This document shows positions 5,168 through 38,801 of a stretch of DNA of 48,931 bases, piece after piece. The notes beneath the pieces are model-generated. The model saw nothing but the letters and a program-made list of their open reading frames with translations. It searched no databases and was not told where the DNA came from. The stretch lies in assembly GCA_022824205.1 (NCBI GenBank), contig JAJEAI010000155.1:1-48931 (forward strand), given 5' to 3'. The number at the start of each line of letters is the position of its first letter. The stretch's first letter is position 1. The DNA is from Candidatus Binatia bacterium. Its GTDB lineage: Bacteria; Desulfobacterota; Binatia; UBA9968; JAJDTQ01. The translations under genes and the position numbers were made by a program.

Positions 5168-5447
5168 GGTCACCGCGCCGTGCCGGTGACAAGAATCACG
5201 GGTCACCGCGCCGTGCCGGTGACAAGAATCACGGGTCACCGCGCCGTGCCGGTGACAAGAATCACAGGTCACCGCCGCCGTGCCGGCGACAGGAATCACA
5301 GGTCACCGCGCCGCGCCGGCGACGGGAATCACAGGTCACCGCGCCGTGTCGGCGACAAGAATCACGGGTCACCGCGCCGTGCCGGTGACAAGAAGCACAG
5401 GTCACCGCGCCGTGCATCACAGGTCACCGCGCCGTGCCGGCGACAGG
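5168..5447. repeat. 33-bp tandem array of hairpin-forming units (9 copies)
   Basis: Nine consecutive units begin with GGTCACCGCGCCGTG. Units 1-3 and 5-7 are 33 bases, unit 4 is 34, unit 8 is truncated to 22 and unit 9 is partial. Each full unit holds the inverted repeat GTCACCG...CGGTGAC with an 8-base loop, then a constant AAGAATCAC spacer. Units differ at a few positions, for example CGGTGAC versus CGGCGAC, which weakens one arm. Because spacers are constant this is not a CRISPR array. It fills most of the 675-base gap between the divergent amidohydrolase and CmcJ/NvfI-type genes. On the minus strand it is readable as an 11-residue repeat, but no start signal supports translation. Confidence 0.9.
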
Positions 5448-7321: not shown

Positions 7322-7604
7322 GGACACTAGGAGCCCTATCGGATTTATCAAGAATCGACTGAGAGGAAGGGAATTGGGTCCATTTCAAGGAAAGTCAAGA
7401 CTTCCGAGGCGCCAACTCCCCGAGTCGTCATTGATATGGCAGTTACGGAATCCCGCGACACCCCAATGAGTCATTCCCGCGGAAGCGGGAATCCAGGCGG
7501 GGTGGGGCCGGGCAATGAGGCCGCCACACCCCCCACCCCTGGATTCCCGCTTGCGCGGGAATGACGACTCGGGGGATTGATAAACCCGACAGACTCCTAG
7601 TGTC
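7322..7604. repeat. MITE-like element with CACTAGGAG inverted ends, containing a composite palindrome (copy B)
   Basis: The ends 7322-7351 (GGACACTAGGAGCCCTATCG, then GATTTATCAA) and 7577-7604 (TTGATAAACCCGACAGACTC, then CTAGTGTC) are inverted copies over about 26 bases. Inside lies a reversed copy of the composite palindrome: CGAGTCGTCATTGATATGG (about 7421), GTTACGGAATCCCGCGACAC, and an inverted pair at 7470-7496 and 7541-7565. This copy lacks about 30 bases of the AT-rich tail seen in the other copies. The right-end CTAG provides the TAG stop of the LuxR-type gene. No gene lies within. Confidence 0.75.
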
Positions 7605-8217
7605 GCGTCGCTCTCCGTACGGTGCTCGCGTCCTCTTGCGGGTCATCCGTGGCCAAAGCAGCGCCGCCGGATGCGCTTTCGGTCGCAGAGGCGCCGATTC
7701 CCGCCGTCCCCTCGCGCAGTTCATCTTCGGTGATGGGCATGAGCAACTGATGGACGATCTCGGCGACGAATTCCGCCCGACCGCTGACTCCGGCTTTCGC
7801 ATAGAGAGCGCTCGCCTGCAATCGGGTCGTGTTTTCCTTGACCCCGCGCAAATCCGCGATTTCCGCGAAGCGGAAACCCTTGATGATGAGCCACGCGACT
7901 TCTTTTTCGCTACGGGTGAGCCGCCAAGCGTCCATTTGCTCTTCGATGCCGGCGGCGAGTTCCCCGGCGAGCATCCTGTTTCGATTCTGCTCCTGCTCCA
8001 GACGCGCGCGCAGGCCGACGAGATCCCTCAGGTTGACGACGAGGATCCACGAAACCGCTGCAAAAACGAAGGTTTCGATGACAAAATGGGGTGAGCCGAA
8101 CTCGCCCTCGAATAACGCGTCCACGACGAGGTCGTAGGCGAAGAACACCATCGCCAACGCCAGCATCGCCAACGCCAGTATTCGTCGCCTTGGCACTACG
8201 TGGAGCAAGTCGTTCAC
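7597..8217 (-). CDS. Membrane-anchored LuxR-family transcriptional regulator
   Basis: A 206-residue protein with two N-terminal membrane helices (about 10-35, RILALAMLALAMVFFAY; about 45-66, FVIETFVFAAVSWILVV), a linking coiled-coil-like stretch rich in Glu/Arg/Gln, and a LuxR-type helix-turn-helix at about 103-160 (LTRSEKEVAWLIIKGFRFAE, then ENTTRLQASALYAKAGVSG). There is no receiver domain, so it probably senses at the membrane. The start is GTG at 8217 with a weak AAAGAGA upstream. It is divergent from the autotransporter gene, a common arrangement for a local regulator; that link is inference. The last TAG lies inside the end of a MITE-like repeat, and the C-terminal 30 residues are low-complexity Ala/Ser/Glu. 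Confidence 0.8.
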   Translation of the reverse strand: MNDLLHVVPRRRILALAMLALAMVFFAYDLVVDALFEGEFGSPHFVIETFVFAAVSWILVVNLRDLVGLRARLEQEQNRNRMLAGELAAGIEEQMDAWRLTRSEKEVAWLIIKGFRFAEIADLRGVKENTTRLQASALYAKAGVSGRAEFVAEIVHQLLMPITEDELREGTAGIGASATESASGGAALATDDPQEDASTVRRATRH

Positions 8218-8542
8218 GAGCGGTCTCTTTCGTCCCTGAACACGGTCGAGCCTTTGGGCTCGTACTGATCACCCTACCACTACACGGAGTCCCATTCAAA
8301 GGCCAAACAGGCCGGCAACCGGCGTAGGGCAAAGCGGGTGTGCCTCCTTGCCCTGCGTCATGGATGTGTGGTCGGGGGGGTAGAAGCGCGGTTCGGTGGC
8401 ATCCATGGTGCATATGACACTCCTCATCCCGCGTATATCACACGTTTAAGGACTCGGCTTTTATCACAAACGGGCGATGCGGCACTCCAATTTCTTCGTG
8501 TAACTCTTCTTGAAAGGCGAAACCCTTGCGGGAGGGGAAACC
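8218..8542. other. Divergent intergenic region between luxR-type and autotransporter genes
   Basis: 325 bases with somewhat lower GC in the middle (GCGTATATCACACG near 8430, TTTAAGGACTCGGCTTTTAT near 8443). It must carry both divergent promoters, but I cannot assign -35/-10 boxes with confidence. No repeat from the families seen elsewhere is present. Confidence 0.4.
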
Positions 8543-11500
8543 ATGACTTCAAGAAAAAGGACGATCGAGGGGGAACCGCCCATCTTGCGCTGGATGGCGT
8601 CAGCCCTGATCAGCACCCTGATCTCGCTGTGTCTCGTGATGAGGGCTGGTATGCTGAGCGAGAAGCTCCCATTCCATCTCGTTCCGGAGGCTCGTGCCAG
8701 TGTAAATGGTGGTCCCTACGCTGCCGACGATGATGACGATGATGATGACGACGATGACGATGACGACGAGGGTGATGACGACGAGGATGACGAGGACGAC
8801 GAGGACGATGGCGACGATGGCGACGAGGGCAATGAAGGCGACGAGGGTAACGAGGGCGATGAGAATGACGAGGGCGACGAAGGTGACGAGAATGACGAGG
8901 GTGACGTGGGGGATGAGGACGACGGCGACGAAGGTGATGAGGGGGACGAGGGCGACGAAAACGACGAGGGCGATGAGGGTGACGAGAACGACGAAGGCGA
9001 TGAGGGTGACGAGAACGACGAAGGCGATGAAGGTGACGAGAACGACGAGGGGGACGCGGGGGACGCGATTGCTGCGGGGGACGAAGGCGACGAGGACAAC
9101 GGCGACGAGGGGGACGAGGGGGACGAAGGTGACGAGAACGATGAGGGTGACGAGAATGACGAGGGCGATGAGGGCGACGAGGGGGATGAGGACGACGACG
9201 GCGACGAGGGCGATGAAGGTGACGAGAACGACGAAGGCGATGAGGGTGACGAGGATAACGACGGCGACGAGGGCGATGAGGGTGACGAGAATGATGAGGG
9301 GGACGAGGGTGACGAGAACGACGAGGGTGATGAAGGTGACGAGAACGACGAGGGGGACGAGGGTGACGAGAATGATGAGGGGGACGAAGGCGACGAGAAC
9401 AACGGCGACGAGGGGGACGAAGGCGACGAGAACGACGAGGGGGACGAAGGGGACGAGAACGATGAGGGGGACGAGAATGACGAGGGCGATGAGGGGGACG
9501 AGGGCGATGAGGGTGACGAGGACAACAGGCGCGCCGACGGGGCTACTCTAATCGAGAAGAAACAGGCACGTCAGCAGGCCGAGGCCGTGGTTGAAGAGTC
9601 CGATCAAGCGCTGGCAGACGCGAGAGAGGCGCTAACGACCGGGGAGGAGGCTCTCAGGGCGATCATCGTGTCCTTTCTCAGAAGCTCGCCCACGGAAGAC
9701 GACGATGGATCCGGCCCTGGCTGGTCCGATGTCTATGACGCCTTCAGGGATCAGCTTGTCCTGAGAGGCGAATATGAGCGCAGGCTCACTGAACTGGAAG
9801 AGGCGAGGGCCGTCCTCAAGCACGCCACGATAGTGGTGGAGCAGTTGAGCAACGATCTGGAGGCCGAGTCGGCGCCACTTGCGATAAGAGACGCCATAAG
9901 AGATTGCGTGACGCGCACCTGCTCGGCCGACGATTTCCTCACGACCAAGCGGTTCAGCATCTTTCAGCCTCAGGTGCTGGAGATGGTCGGCGTGCATCAC
10001 GCCTATGCGAAGGGACTGACGGGAACGGGTGTGCGGATCGCCATCGAGGACGATATCGTGAATTACACACTCCCCGAATTCGCGGGACGGATCTCATTCG
10101 ACGGTGCCGTGCTCGCGTATCCCTTACCGGATGGAGGCGACGATTCCTCGGATGCGAGGCGGTGCGAGCGCGCCGGCGAGACAGAGCGCTCGGCGCTCGG
10201 CTGCAAGGTGTTTTCGTACGATTCCGAACACGATTTCCTCGAAATACAGACGGTACAGGCAGCCGTGAACGCCAACGGTTGGCCCGGGAAAGGAGAGCGG
10301 TGGTTCGTAAGGAACGAACACCATGAGGAAGGCAGCCGCGCCCGGTGGTCGGAAATTCCCCATGCCGCGGGCGAAGACCGTCATGGCACCGCCGTCGCGT
10401 CGGTTGCGGCAGGCCGGGACTTCGGCATTGCTCCGGGCGCCACGATCGTTCCCGTCGCAAGAAGGTTCACGCCTGAAGGGCAGGCGGGACAGGACGTGTC
10501 TCGCGCCGTCCTGGACGTCATTTCGAAGATGTCCTCTTCGGAGCGGGCGGAGGCGGATGCCGCGATGGCGAAAGCCGTCCTGGACGACTACGCGCTTTAC
10601 GACATCATCAACCGTAGTTTTGGGATCGGCGTGTTCGATCCAGCCGGAATCCAGAGAGCCTTGAATGACGAGACGGCATGGTGGGGTGACCACCTGCGCC
10701 GGATCCTGCCCAGAACGTGGCGCGCCTTCATGCAAACGGAGACGCACCCCGATGATCGTACCGTCGTGGTATACGCGGCAGGAAACGAGAAGGAGGAGTT
10801 CCCGGGTCTGGGGGCAAACCTGCCCTACCACGAGCCGCACGTGCGGGGGCATCAGTTGTCCGTGATGGCGGTGGAGCACGACGGCAGCCATGCGGCCTAC
10901 ACCAATTTCTGTGGGGCGCTTCCCTCGGATTGGGACGAAGAGCGCTGGGGACGACATTTCTGCCTGGCGGCGCCGGGGACGGTGAACTCGGCCGGCAATG
11001 CCGGCAGGGGACACGTCTTTCACGAAATCGAGGGAACGTCATTCGCGGCGCCGGTCGTAAGCGGCGCGATTGCGCTGCTTATGGAGCATTTCCGGGGACA
11101 GCTCGGCAACAGCGCAATCGTGAAGCGGGTTGTCGATACGGCCGACAATACAGGGCGGTATGCTCAGCTCGAGATCTACGGAGCTGGGCTCCTCGATATC
11201 GAGGCGGCGTTGCAGCCCGTGGGGAGCATGACGACGGGTACCCCGACGGCGAGTGCCGCCGCCATGCGATCCGCGGCACGGGTGCCGTACGCGATGGGCA
11301 ACCTTGGCCGGCGACTGGCTTCCCAGGGCGTGGAGGTGGCGTTCCTCGATAGCCTGGGAGCACCGTTCTGGTCATCGCCGGTGGCCTACATCCGGCCGTT
11401 GGACAATACGGTCTCGGCGATTCCCGTCTTTTTCGGGCCGGACGATGAGGGCGGTGGGCAACTGCATCTCGGGTTCTCTCCGGGAACGATCGCGGGGCCG

Positions 11501-12109
11501 GCGGATGATCGCGGCGTACGCCTGCTGTTGGGCGCATACAGGTTCGGCGTGGAGCGGGCGCCGTCGGACGGACTTGGATGGGGTATTCTTGGGGATACAG
11601 CGTCCTGGCAGGGGGGCGGCGTTTCCGGCGCCTTCGGCGATAGAGTCCGGTCGGTGACGGCGTGGGTGGGACGAAACGCCAGGTTCGCACTGACTGATGC
11701 GTGGACCTTGAGGACCTCGGCGACACTCGCCTTGGGACAAGTCTTCCACGAACCTGGTGCAATGCTCTCCATCGACGCTCACGTGTTGTCCGCGTGGGAC
11801 TTCGGTGTCGAGCGGGGAGACCGCGGTCGCGGCACATGGTCGCGGATCGCGTTGTCGCAGCCTCTTCGAGCCGAAACGGGCGACGCAACGTTCACTTATC
11901 TTGCGGGGCTGAAGGACGGAGTTCCCGCTTACGACAGGGCGAAGCTGCCGTTGGCGCCCGACGGTCGAGCGCTTGAGCTCGCGCTTACTCACGAGGCTCC
12001 GATCGGTCGGGGGCGGGGTGCGATCCAGGTGGCGCGCACCTGGAATGCGAGACACGAGCCCGGTGCGAGCAGTTGGCGAATCGGGGTGGCATATCGGCTG
12101 AAGTGGTGA
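8543..12109 (+). CDS. Subtilisin-type (S8) autotransporter with hyperacidic repeat
   Basis: A 1188-residue secreted serine protease. ATG 8543 follows GGGAGGGG; a TTG 33 bases upstream is less likely. Order of parts: signal-like hydrophobic segment about 18-35 (WMASALISTLISLCLVM); an Asp/Glu/Gly/Asn tract at 62-328 built from DEG/DEN triplets; a short coiled-coil (EKKQARQQAEAVVEESDQAL); a subtilase domain with the triad Asp503 or 504 (VRIAIEDDIV), His614 (DRHGTAVASV) and Ser833 (GTSFAAPVVSG), plus VVYAAGNE for the oxyanion Asn; and a beta-rich C-terminal barrel-like domain ending in AYRLKW, the terminal aromatic expected for outer-membrane insertion. The tract has almost no positive charge and may bind divalent cations or act as a flexible spacer; neither is shown. 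Confidence 0.88.
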   Translation: MTSRKRTIEGEPPILRWMASALISTLISLCLVMRAGMLSEKLPFHLVPEARASVNGGPYAADDDDDDDDDDDDDDEGDDDEDDEDDEDDGDDGDEGNEGDEGNEGDENDEGDEGDENDEGDVGDEDDGDEGDEGDEGDENDEGDEGDENDEGDEGDENDEGDEGDENDEGDAGDAIAAGDEGDEDNGDEGDEGDEGDENDEGDENDEGDEGDEGDEDDDGDEGDEGDENDEGDEGDEDNDGDEGDEGDENDEGDEGDENDEGDEGDENDEGDEGDENDEGDEGDENNGDEGDEGDENDEGDEGDENDEGDENDEGDEGDEGDEGDEDNRRADGATLIEKKQARQQAEAVVEESDQALADAREALTTGEEALRAIIVSFLRSSPTEDDDGSGPGWSDVYDAFRDQLVLRGEYERRLTELEEARAVLKHATIVVEQLSNDLEAESAPLAIRDAIRDCVTRTCSADDFLTTKRFSIFQPQVLEMVGVHHAYAKGLTGTGVRIAIEDDIVNYTLPEFAGRISFDGAVLAYPLPDGGDDSSDARRCERAGETERSALGCKVFSYDSEHDFLEIQTVQAAVNANGWPGKGERWFVRNEHHEEGSRARWSEIPHAAGEDRHGTAVASVAAGRDFGIAPGATIVPVARRFTPEGQAGQDVSRAVLDVISKMSSSERAEADAAMAKAVLDDYALYDIINRSFGIGVFDPAGIQRALNDETAWWGDHLRRILPRTWRAFMQTETHPDDRTVVVYAAGNEKEEFPGLGANLPYHEPHVRGHQLSVMAVEHDGSHAAYTNFCGALPSDWDEERWGRHFCLAAPGTVNSAGNAGRGHVFHEIEGTSFAAPVVSGAIALLMEHFRGQLGNSAIVKRVVDTADNTGRYAQLEIYGAGLLDIEAALQPVGSMTTGTPTASAAAMRSAARVPYAMGNLGRRLASQGVEVAFLDSLGAPFWSSPVAYIRPLDNTVSAIPVFFGPDDEGGGQLHLGFSPGTIAGPADDRGVRLLLGAYRFGVERAPSDGLGWGILGDTASWQGGGVSGAFGDRVRSVTAWVGRNARFALTDAWTLRTSATLALGQVFHEPGAMLSIDAHVLSAWDFGVERGDRGRGTWSRIALSQPLRAETGDATFTYLAGLKDGVPAYDRAKLPLAPDGRALELALTHEAPIGRGRGAIQVARTWNARHEPGASSWRIGVAYRLKW
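8726..9526 (+). repeat. 801-bp GAC/GAG/GGN triplet repeat encoding the acidic tract
   Basis: Tandem array of 9-base units (GAC GAG GGN or GAC GAG AAY) with higher-order 27-base units reading DEGDEGDEN. It begins with a run of 14 Asp codons. Synonymous third-position changes (GGC/GGT/GGG, GAC/GAT) are scattered, so the protein pattern is better preserved than the DNA. Frames on both strands stay open here simply because of the repeat; the antisense Ser/Pro frame at 8716-9525 is not a gene. Confidence 0.9.
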
Positions 12110-12207
12110 AGCGGTCATTACGGTTTCGGGTGATCTGACCCTGCCCGGCCGCGAACCGCCACGCCAGACACCACACCAGGTCCCGCGACAGGACGAGGGG
12201 GAGAGAA

Positions 12208-12915
12208 GTGACGCACGAAACTCCGAACCGGTCAGCCCCGGACATCCCCTTGGCGGCTCGTGTGTCCGAAGACGCCCTCAAGGTGGCGCAGCATTTCCCG
12301 ACGCTCGTTTTTTCTCTGGATGTTCCGGACAGCGAGAGGTTGAACGGCCACCTGCTCGAGGCGATCTACGCCGAACGAGAACGCGACAGAATAGGCGTGC
12401 GCAAGTCGAACTTCCCGGAGCTTGGGAGTTGGCACAGCCACGTCAGGCTGCACAAGGACGCCGCGTTCGCGGGACTGGTTCAACACGTCGATGCCGTCGC
12501 GGCCATGATGTGCCGCCAGCTCGGATATCACAGGTCCTATCGCCTGAGAATCGGCACCATGTGGTCGATCATCAATCCACCGGGCAGCTCGAACCGGGCC
12601 CACATCCATCCCGGCTGCCTCTGGAGCGGCGTCTACTACGTCCAGGCGCCCAGCAATGCGGGTCGAATCGAGTTCATCGATCCGCGTACCCAGAACCTGA
12701 TGACTTCCGCCGAATTCATCCCCGACACCAAGCGCCCCCGAATCTGCTGGACGAAGGTCCGGTACAAGCCGGTGGCCGGAAGAATGCTCATCTTCCCCAG
12801 TTGGTTGTACCACAGCGTGAATCCGAATCGATCCAGGGCCAAGGGGAAGGACGCCGATCGGATCATCGTGAGCTTCAACCTGTCTCAGGAAAGGGCAGGC
12901 AGTCGCGCACGATGA
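12208..12915 (+). CDS. TIGR02466-type putative 2OG-Fe(II) oxygenase
   Basis: A 235-residue protein matching the TIGR02466 pattern of putative cupin-fold Fe/2-oxoglutarate oxygenases. Iron-ligand candidates are in NRAHIHPGCLWSGVYYVQ (HxH) and WLYHSVNPN, with the fold-typical PVAGRMLIFPSWLYHSV and DRIIVSFNLS near the end. Start GTG 12208 is preceded by GGGGGAGAGAA. It follows the autotransporter in the same direction after about 100 bases and could be co-transcribed, though nothing links their functions. Substrate unknown; many relatives are phage- or marine-associated. Confidence 0.8.
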   Translation: MTHETPNRSAPDIPLAARVSEDALKVAQHFPTLVFSLDVPDSERLNGHLLEAIYAERERDRIGVRKSNFPELGSWHSHVRLHKDAAFAGLVQHVDAVAAMMCRQLGYHRSYRLRIGTMWSIINPPGSSNRAHIHPGCLWSGVYYVQAPSNAGRIEFIDPRTQNLMTSAEFIPDTKRPRICWTKVRYKPVAGRMLIFPSWLYHSVNPNRSRAKGKDADRIIVSFNLSQERAGSRAR

Positions 12916-13098
12916 CGACGACCCACGGAGGGCTATCCGTGGTTCCGCCGGCTTCGGAAGCTTGGCGCCTCGGGTCATGCGGAGGAAGCGCTCGGCTCGC
13001 GTTGGGCGGGGCTCGTCGTGATTCCCCAGGCACCCCTCCGGTCCGCCCGTCCCGCATGAACCGGCCGCGTCATGAGGAAGACGCGGTTGTCCGTCCTG

Positions 13099-17214: not shown

Positions 17215-17378
17215 CCGGCGATAGCGACAGCGCGAATCCGACGGAGAACACGAGCGGCAGGACGAATCCGGCGGACAATACGAGGAACCGCGCGAGTCCG
17301 ACGGAGCAGCCGAGCGACGGCACGAAGCCGGCAGAGGACACGGGCGACCGCGCGATTCCGACGGAGACCACGACCCCG
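17215..17378 (+). repeat. Imperfect ~60-bp tandem repeat before ubiD-like gene
   Basis: Units of the type GCGAATCCGACGGAGAACAC alternating with GAATCCGGCGGACAATACG recur between the bicupin stop and the next ATG. In the reading frame of the following UbiD-like gene the stretch is open and spells Pro/Thr/Glu/Asn-rich repeats (ANPTEN, TNPADN, ASPTEQ, TKPAED, AIPTET). No start codon with a ribosome-binding site is seen upstream, so I treat it as a spacer repeat. Confidence 0.6.
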
Positions 17379-20005: not shown

Positions 20006-20062
20006 CGTCGGGGCCGGACGACGGTCTCCGGAGGTAAGGTTAAGCCGCGTGTACGTGAAACG

Positions 20063-20157
20063 TCATTCCCGCGCAAGCGGGAATCCAGGGGTGGAGAGGG
20101 GCAAAACGGACCTGTTTCCCTCTCACCCCGCCTGTATTCCCGCTTCCGCGGGAATCA
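20063..20157. repeat. Inverted pair of 27-bp palindromic units
   Basis: TCATTCCCGCGCAAGCGGGA at 20063 and its inverted partner ending near 20157 (CGCTTCCGCGGGAATCA) enclose about 40 bases. Same family as the repeats at 1317-1411 and 3657-3750, here without the AT-rich tail. It separates the Pht5-like gene from the second ubiD-like gene and may act as a transcription attenuator. Confidence 0.75.
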
Positions 20158-20200
20158 CGTTCCGTAGGTGTGTAGGCGTATAATCGACGAGAGGTGACCC

Positions 20201-33053: not shown

Positions 33054-33277
33054 CGTCATTCCCGCGCAACAGACCGTGATGAGCATCGACACCCAGACTC
33101 CGAACCGTCATTCCCGGGTTCGCGGGAATGACGTATTCGTAACGTCCCAGCGTGGAGAGTTTTGCCACAGCCTGTTTCGCGGGAATCACCCATGCCGGCT
33201 TTCGGCCGACACACAGGGGATGAAAAGAGACTTCGGTCCCCCAATACGTCATTCCCGCGGAAGCGGGAATCCAGGCG
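33054..33277. repeat. Degenerate composite palindromic repeat
   Basis: Contains CATTCCCGCGCAACAGACCG at 33057, an inverted unit GTCATTCCCGGGTTCGCGGG near 33106, GAGTTTTGCCACAGCCTGTT TCGCGGGAAT near 33156-33183 (one repeat arm, shown split), and a full unit at 33250-33277. The outer parts resemble the CAGGCTGTGTC bracket seen at 1208-1468. It fills the 376-base gap between the MOSC and mutY genes; no gene is visible. Confidence 0.7.
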
Positions 33278-33350
33278 GGGCGGGGCCTGGGTGACGAGTC
33301 GGGGCGTGGGTGTCCGGGAACCCCCTGGTCCGACCGGGTGCGACGGCACC

Positions 33351-34400: not shown

Positions 34401-34445
34401 GGCGTAGAGACGTTTCGAATGCGTCGGGCGCGCCACACCGCCACC

Positions 34446-34541
34446 CCTGGATTCCCGCTTCCGCGGGAATGACGGTTCGGGGGGCGGTGTCTCTTCGTAT
34501 CCGAGCGGAGCATTCACACAGCCTGGAAGCGGGCATCCAGG
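34446..34541. repeat. 27-bp palindromic unit with ACACAGCCTG motif
   Basis: CCTGGATTCCCGCTTCCGCG then GGAATGA (34446-34472), followed by CATTCACACAGCCTGGAAGC near 34511. Both motifs co-occur in the composite repeats elsewhere. It lies between mutY and the ornithine cyclodeaminase-like gene. Confidence 0.7.
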
Positions 34542-34577
34542 GGTGGCGAGGGGCCGACGCGGCCCGGTGCCGATCCC

Positions 34578-38485: not shown

Positions 38486-38536
38486 AATGGCGGACGGCTT
38501 AGCATGCGGTCTTTTTTGCCGCAAACGGCCCCCCAC

Positions 38537-38789
38537 CCCTGGATTCCCGCTTTCGCGGGAATGACGAATAGGGAGGGCGGGAATGACGAATAGGGAGGGC
38601 GGGAATGACGAGAAGAGAGGCGGGAATGACGAGAAGAGAGGCGGGAATGACGAGAAGGGAGGGCGGGAATGACGAGAAGAGAGGGCGGGAATGACGAGAA
38701 GAGAGGGCGGGAATGACGAGAAGAGAGGGCGGGAATGACAAGGGGCAACAACCCCCGAATCGTCATTCCCGCGGAAGCGGGAATCCAGG
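38537..38789. repeat. Palindromic units with a 21/22-bp minisatellite
   Basis: A 27-bp unit (38537-38563) is followed by eight tandem copies of GGGAATGACGAGAAGAGAGG plus C or GC (38557-38739; first two copies GAATAGGGAGGGC), then another unit in opposite orientation (38763-38789). The tandem motif begins with the end of the palindromic unit (GCGGGAATGACG), so it appears to be an amplified end. It fills the gap between the third ubiD-like gene and the molybdenum hydroxylase gene. Confidence 0.85.
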
Positions 38790-38801
38790 GGTGGGGAGGG
38801 G

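Follow-up and report, generated by a model that had tools for sequence, protein, structure and literature searches.

NalP and SphB1 are lipidated subtilase autotransporters (PMC9977779). Acidic charge is thought to help passengers cross the outer membrane, and this idea has been tested with engineered chimeras (PMC4174580). According to the same report, an acidic disordered segment passes through the autotransporter pathway, and its acidity is critical. The locus described here lies in the window, by which we mean the whole analysed stretch of 48,931 nucleotides from a Candidatus Binatia bacterium, and it encodes a subtilase with a long polyacidic tract near its N-terminus.

Architecture of the subtilase and its acidic tract

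The gene and its parts were located as follows.

8543..12109, + strand: subtilase coding sequence with a predicted C-terminal barrel, 1188 amino acids from the ATG
8543..8725, + strand: signal-like N-terminus of 61 residues, with a basic n-region, a 17-residue hydrophobic stretch WMASALISTLISLCLVM and a conserved stretch ending PFHLVPEARASVNGGPYAA; no lipobox
8726..9526, + strand: polyacidic tract of 267 residues, in imperfect 9/18-bp in-frame repeats
8726..8767, + strand: leading poly-Asp run of 14 residues (11, 17 and 40 in the orthologues)
9527..9871, + strand: predicted two-helix hairpin (helices 9530-9682 and 9722-9871), also found in tract-less relatives
10022..11188, + strand: Peptidase_S8 domain (residues 494-882, Pfam)
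11516..12106, + strand: predicted outer-membrane β-barrel of 12 main strands, with Trp as the last residue (AlphaFold2)

The most plausible start is the ATG at 8543, which we preferred to the upstream TTG at 8510 given in the open reading frame list. The Met at 8543 is supported because the N-termini of the orthologues align there, that of G003 at the equivalent Met. From N to C, the order is a 61-residue basic-then-hydrophobic segment, the tract (beginning at residue 62, after the signal-like segment), the two-helix hairpin, Peptidase_S8 and the predicted barrel. Within the helices of the hairpin, block AlphaFold2 pLDDT values were mostly 74-89, and retention of the hairpin in tract-less relatives was read from the alignment.

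The protease belongs to the S8 family both by a whole-domain profile match (PF00082, E 7.4e-29, profile 1-288 of 288) and by its motifs, in which we take the catalytic residues to be the Asp of IEDD (503/504), His614, Asn748 and Ser833. The model of this domain superposed on the subtilase autotransporter Ssp (8e7f; VIA Z 22.6, rmsd 4.2, 274 aligned), a match tied with those to kexin, furin and subtilisins; the values for Kex2 (1ot5) were Z 22.7, rmsd 3.5 and 267 aligned. AlphaFold2 on the C-terminus alone gave a barrel model with a mean pLDDT of 71. The best VIA match of the barrel was EspP (8bnz_P; Z 11.4, rmsd 3.9, 213 aligned); the NalP translocator (1uyo) gave Z 10.2, rmsd 4.8 and 195 aligned, and OmpG tied with these (Z 10.7). 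The protein is likely to be an autotransporter, and it may be one of the classical (type Va) kind. The first-pass annotation had called it a subtilase autotransporter; the subtilase half of that name is borne out by Pfam, and the other half stays a prediction because it comes from predicted structure, with no Pfam or NCBIfam match in the barrel region.

The pattern [LVI][ASTVIL][GAS]C was absent from the first 62 residues of all four tract-bearing proteins (this one and the three orthologues described below), none of which carries the lipobox cysteine of the NalP/SphB1 type. Their signal-like N-termini are 80-95% identical, about as conserved as the protease, which is unusual for a cleaved signal peptide. 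The hydrophobic stretch is followed by Arg, and about 17 residues separate it from an ARA motif. This leaves the cleavage site ambiguous, so that the N-terminus could conceivably stay membrane-anchored, which would alter the topology. In that case the inner membrane would retain the 61 residues, and the tract would span the periplasm as a tether to the outer-membrane barrel. The conservation and the distance of the ARA motif fit such an arrangement. However, the relatives start with plain signal peptides or lipoboxes, and a tether should keep the tract above some minimum and at a steadier length; it would also trap the passenger. We consider this topology quite improbable.

The tract itself contains D105, E74, G59, N23, A4, V1 and I1. 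None of its 267 residues is Lys, Arg or His, and its net charge is -179. Its coordinates, length, 14 leading Asp residues and lack of positive charge agree exactly with the initial description. That description also had DEG/DEN triplets running throughout. These are indeed the commonest triplets (44 DEG, 17 DEN), but they fall out of register at several points, and one non-acidic segment, DAGDAIAAGDE, interrupts them. On the Uversky charge-hydropathy plot, the composition lies deep in the disordered region. The DNA is an imperfect 9/18-bp in-frame repeat. An assembly artefact is unlikely, because the longest exact repeats within the tracts of the four orthologues measure 36, 32, 18 and 62 bp and a tract occurs in four separate genome assemblies. 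The tract is a real, unusual, composition-conserved polyanionic module.

The suggestion that no standard autotransporter module has this form was upheld in Pfam and NCBIfam, where no named module matched the tract beyond compositional collagen-type matches. The Pfam Collagen match (E 1.9e-10) is of this compositional kind. A collagen-like Gly-X-Y stalk was rejected: the longest uninterrupted run was 4-6 triplets in the four tracts, and none of the four contains Pro. Literature searches on subtilase autotransporters with acidic or poly-Asp stretches listed no recognisable arrangement of this type; we make no claim of its wider absence from print.

Two further long open frames cover the tract, 8706-9551 on the + strand (281 aa) and 8716-9525 on the - strand (269 aa). 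We rejected overlapping genes here, since a (GAN)n array without stops in several frames is expected to leave them open, and the two frames are an annotation trap. Elsewhere in the window, tandem arrays with units of 33, 30 and 22 bp lie at 5168-5415, 17223-17373 and 38555-38739. A dispersed repeat of about 45 bp was also seen at 7530-7575, 20061-20159, 33238-33286, 34433-34554, 38530-38801 and other places; it also matches loci of other species, including L088:11941-11983, deposited as Nitrospirales.

Orthologues, tract-less relatives and neighbouring genes

Some subtilase match was present in 12 of the 117 relatives' genomes. A near-full-length subtilase at 82-97% identity was found in three genomes besides that of the window (G006, G003 and G005; 97, 84 and 82% identity outside the tract). 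Their tracts have 144, 101 and 170 residues and open with 11, 17 and 40 Asp residues, respectively; the net charges across the four species are -179, -100, -66 and -122. Gene order is common to all four loci, and the tract is present in all four syntenic orthologues, which belong to one genus and make up the entire known tract-bearing set. The G006 contig belongs to 'Candidatus Binatia bacterium jk18x27bins.63'. The jk-type bin naming scheme is that of Ircinia sponge metagenomes with 14 Binatia MAGs, as given in PMC9531527, and the name suggests that this bin derives from that study. The window bacterium is related to marine-sponge symbionts.

Among the more distant relatives, eight N-termini were read, several weaker subtilase matches being set aside, and none of the eight has the tract. 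These tract-less proteins are at 57% identity or below, apart from one C-terminal piece at 62%. In two of them (L087 and L088) a plain signal peptide runs directly into the hairpin. A lipobox-like N-terminus occurs in five, in contrast to the tract clade. By eye, L017 has VGGC followed by a neutral Ser/Thr-rich linker, and L002, L009 and L010 have LAAC followed by a glycine-rich linker; L011 has a looser LQGC, also with a glycine-rich linker. The last, L019, has a weaker cysteine motif. The first-pass annotation had held that orthologues lacking the tract, or carrying neutral repeats in its place, would argue for a neutral expansion. The outcome was split, as every orthologue at 82-97% identity keeps an acidic tract, whereas the relatives at 57% or below have none or have neutral linkers. 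Taken with the 2.6-fold variation in length, this points to retention of charge and freedom of length.

A maximum-likelihood tree grouped the four tract-bearers with support of 100/100; the order of L017 and L087/L088 around this clade was not settled. On this distribution the tract is an innovation of one small clade, where it apparently took the place of an ancestral lipid anchor. Most simply, the ancestral protein would have been lipidated; its lipobox would have been lost and, on the stem of a single clade, the arm acquired.

Some of these loci have peculiarities of their own. The tract-less homologue at L088:5911-8540, from a MAG deposited as Nitrospirales (Plut_88904), has a frame broken near 7413, either a real break or an assembly error. 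In the paralogues L002, L009, L010 and L011, the lipobox is followed by glycine-rich runs whose G-rich DNA could be prone to slippage, by analogy with nalP, which is phase-variable through slippage-prone G-rich DNA.

Similar tracts were rare elsewhere, which sets the pattern above chance. A pattern of five successive DE plus purine-purine codon units occurred in 2 of 395 phylum-sample genomes, that of the window and one distant genome of the same phylum, where the match was an unrelated D-E-K triplet repeat (G446:C2:537886-537974). With four units, 4 of 39 relatives matched, and these were exactly the four orthologues. Poly-Asp runs of at least 10 residues occurred in 17 of the 117 relatives, and among the loci read the non-orthologue tracts were shorter and in unrelated proteins. 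Among the relatives listed, genome G095 had such runs on the largest number of contigs, at least five (C20, C501, C513, C515 and C861). Viral contigs held 91 stretches with the DE-repeat pattern and no relative of the S8 domain. No S8 active-site motif lay in the tract-bearing frame in the best 30 (by DE[GN] count) of the 80 viral loci listed; most of these 30 were short DED repeats, and the longest DEG-rich one (L143) had 18 DE[GN] triplets. Among plasmids, seven records matched the S8 region weakly.

Two genes flank the subtilase.

12208..12915, + strand: putative 2OG-Fe(II) oxygenase (TIGR02466 / PF13759), 98 bp past the subtilase stop
7597..8217, - strand: divergent LuxR/GerE-like putative regulator, a weak match

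The regulator matched Pfam GerE (E 0.0026) and NCBIfam NF047608 (E 4e-14), each below its own cutoff, and its DNA is retained in the orthologue loci. The oxygenase (TIGR02466, E 8.6e-59) lies 3' of the subtilase on the same strand in all four tract-bearing genomes, with a gap of 4-13 bp in G003. It had no protein match in five of five tract-less genus-mates (G001, G002, G004, G007 and G008; completeness 76-99%), and the 14.5-kb locus that encodes the tract-less subtilase L088 had none either. The case thus draws attention to an oxygenase gene that accompanies the tract. Some 2OG oxygenases hydroxylate Asp or Asn; none of the titles listed in a literature search on the TIGR02466 family concerned its substrate. 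Because the gene is directly downstream in four of four genomes and unmatched in the genus-mates and the L088 locus, one may speculate, as a long shot, that the enzyme would hydroxylate Asp or Asn of the arm before export. The product would be a length-variable, hydroxy-aspartate-rich surface polymer on a sponge symbiont, borne by a protease and binding divalent or trace metals or mineral. The co-occurrence may, however, reflect a single event, since one gap in G004 covers both genes. In that single-contig genome, the segment corresponding to 7774-13085 of the window is missing between conserved flanks; this segment spans the subtilase, the oxygenase and the greater part of the LuxR-like gene. 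The junction (L206, around 5366-5392) retains about 25 bp and a truncated LuxR-like gene.

Evolution of the tract and its possible roles

Length and composition behave differently in the tract. The window protein (G000) and its closest orthologue (G006), 97% identical elsewhere, differ by a net 123 residues (267 vs 144), with gap runs of 97, 14, 12, 6, 3 and 3 codons. Among the codons that align in this pair, 14 differences are synonymous and four non-synonymous, and mismatches at codon positions 1/2/3 number 1/2/15. Within the window tract, comparison at a lag of 18 bp gave 41/57/131 mismatches at the three positions (chi-square p about 1e-13 assuming independence, a value inflated because repeat copies are not independent). 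The earlier claim that synonymous variation keeps the amino-acid pattern is supported by both counts. Over the 682 residues of the four tracts there are one Arg, two Ser and no Lys. A change from Glu to Lys was never observed (0 Lys against 180 Glu, 29 of these GAA). Under a simple neutral model, with transitions at codon positions 1 and 2 at rates of 2-16%, the expectation for Lys plus Arg over these residues was 5-36 against the single one observed, and that for Ser was 5-31 against two. The lengths, from 101 to 267 residues (2.6-fold), appear to be free and the composition held.

The main rival explanation is that a slippage-prone (GAN)n microsatellite expanded neutrally, or nearly so, in a permissive linker, with a charge that follows from its codon family and serves no function. 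We regard this as possible, though not the leading account. In its favor are the unconstrained length, the restriction to one clade whose relatives manage without a tract, and the differences in the N-terminal linker between subclades, glycine-rich linkers included. Ser is depleted along with Lys and Arg, as homogenisation would yield, so charge is not the whole pattern: either the constraint is narrower than the avoidance of positive charge, or a young and repeatedly homogenised array mimics selection. Homogenisation also spreads variants, so counts across repeat copies are not independent. However, the excess of third-position changes and the absence of Glu to Lys changes across four species speak against neutrality, as does the presence of the tract in all four orthologues down to 82% identity with no neutral replacement.

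We put the chances at about even that the tract is a disordered, length-variable, polyanionic N-terminal arm of a surface-displayed subtilase autotransporter, selected for charge and not for sequence; our confidence in any single use of the arm is much lower. Such an arm would have arisen on the stem of the tract clade through (GAN)n DNA that expanded in frame, either together with the loss of the N-terminal lipid anchor or later. It would then lengthen and shorten by slippage or unequal exchange of the 9/18-bp units. As the barrel is C-terminal and the protease adjoins it, the tract would be the distal, last-exported tip. A stalk projecting the protease was not favored, since the tract lies on the far side of the protease from the C-terminal barrel, unless the N-terminus were anchored. 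The arm would be a free, extended, charged tail that easily crosses the outer membrane, and in seawater it would be loosely covered with Ca2+ and Mg2+. Why charge is kept is the least certain step. The arm might hold the protease tip extended and off the anionic cell surface and, more speculatively still, capture cationic ligands or substrates electrostatically.

More specific roles were also considered. Subtilase propeptides sit N-terminal to the S8 domain, the position of this tract, and the full-length Pfam scan of the subtilase found no Inhibitor_I9 match; both observations fit the early proposal that the tract is an intramolecular inhibitor, here taken as an electrostatic inhibitor of the protease. 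The charges do not support the proposal, because the S8 domain (-22) and the coil of the hairpin region (-11) are themselves acidic and offer no overall basic partner. Inhibition is also hardly compatible with a 2.6-fold change in length, and the relatives would need an inhibitor too. We consider it very improbable.

An acidic tail could instead use its charge to speed translocation of the N-terminal end of the passenger across the outer membrane, and a role in secretion had been proposed at the outset. In its support, the chimera report describes acidic residues as critical for autotransporter secretion of a disordered domain, and natural passengers as acidic for the most part (PMC4174580, with reference to Kang'ethe and Bernstein 2013a), so that passage of such a segment has a precedent. 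Against it, the tract is missing from relatives built in the same way, so that export as such probably does not depend on it. Moreover, its length varies widely, and in the usual C-to-N order it would come out last, after the protease, and so could not start translocation. An export aid seems to us rather unlikely as the explanation.

The tract might also collapse or fold with extracellular Ca2+, switching the protease or using divalent ions to bridge the arm to anionic lipopolysaccharide as an anchor. Its composition resembles that of acidic Ca2+-binding disordered domains (PMC6022996), and the 97%-identical orthologue has a marine, sponge-associated setting by its naming scheme (PMC9531527). 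However, Ca2+ binding to acidic disordered domains often imposes no structure, as PMC6022996 describes, and known motifs were wanting. No GGxGxDxU repeat was found in any of the four tracts and no RTX match in Pfam, which excluded an RTX protein. A thrombospondin-3-like motif was likewise absent from all four. An EF-hand protein was rejected as well: the regular expression for loops with a hydrophobic position 8 gave one match in the window tract and none in the other three, and Pfam gave no EF-hand match. The calcium-responsive spacer first suggested was thus not supported as a specific switch. Seawater Ca2+ is nearly constant and would make a poor signal. We think a calcium module unlikely; non-specific, low-affinity binding of divalent ions by the tract is likely on general grounds.

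Comparison with known systems

Several elements have precedents. The protein is a subtilase and probably an autotransporter, acidic repeats that vary in length occur in the SD adhesins, and stalks of variable length occur in Periscope proteins. The novelty lies in the combination, a subtilase autotransporter whose free end carries an entirely acidic arm, up to 267 residues long, that apparently replaces a lipid anchor in one lineage.

Like NalP, SphB1 and Ssp, the protein combines an S8 passenger with a C-terminal barrel by predicted fold. NalP and SphB1 are lipidated, and several relatives of the window protein share the lipobox (PMC9977779); these relatives would be of the NalP/SphB1 type by analogy. 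Unlike NalP, SphB1 and Ssp, the tract clade has a polyacidic N-terminal arm of 101-267 residues in place of a lipobox, a helical hairpin between arm and protease, and a barrel that Pfam does not recognise. The contrast suggests that one lineage may have exchanged a lipid anchor for a charged polymer.

The SD repeats of staphylococcal Clf/Sdr proteins are likewise long, acidic, disordered and variable in frame through slippage, on a surface protein (PMC3324548). However, they join a ligand-binding domain to the cell-wall anchor, whereas the arm lies at the N-terminal end, away from the barrel, contains almost no Ser and belongs to a predicted Gram-negative autotransporter protease. With Periscope proteins it shares variation in repeat number between close relatives (267 vs 144 residues at 97% identity). 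Those proteins are described as near-identical folded domains in rods that project a functional domain (PMC8201768), whereas the units here are short and degenerate (3-6 residues), disordered in composition, and placed N-terminal to the protease with a free end. The C-terminus of calsequestrin and Starmaker-type biomineralisation proteins share a very high acidic fraction and predicted disorder (PMC6022996); these domains are eukaryotic, with no homology shown to the arm.

The engineered autotransporter chimeras with a disordered RTX receptor domain share an acidic disordered passenger segment (PMC4174580). The arm differs from them in having no GGxGxD repeats and in being natural. It is a natural extreme, in which the net charge of a single arm reaches -179, and tract-less relatives provide a matched contrast. 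Tracts of 267, 170, 144, 101 and 0 residues form a comparison series for charge-dependent export and for the effect of a disordered polyanion on a surface protease.
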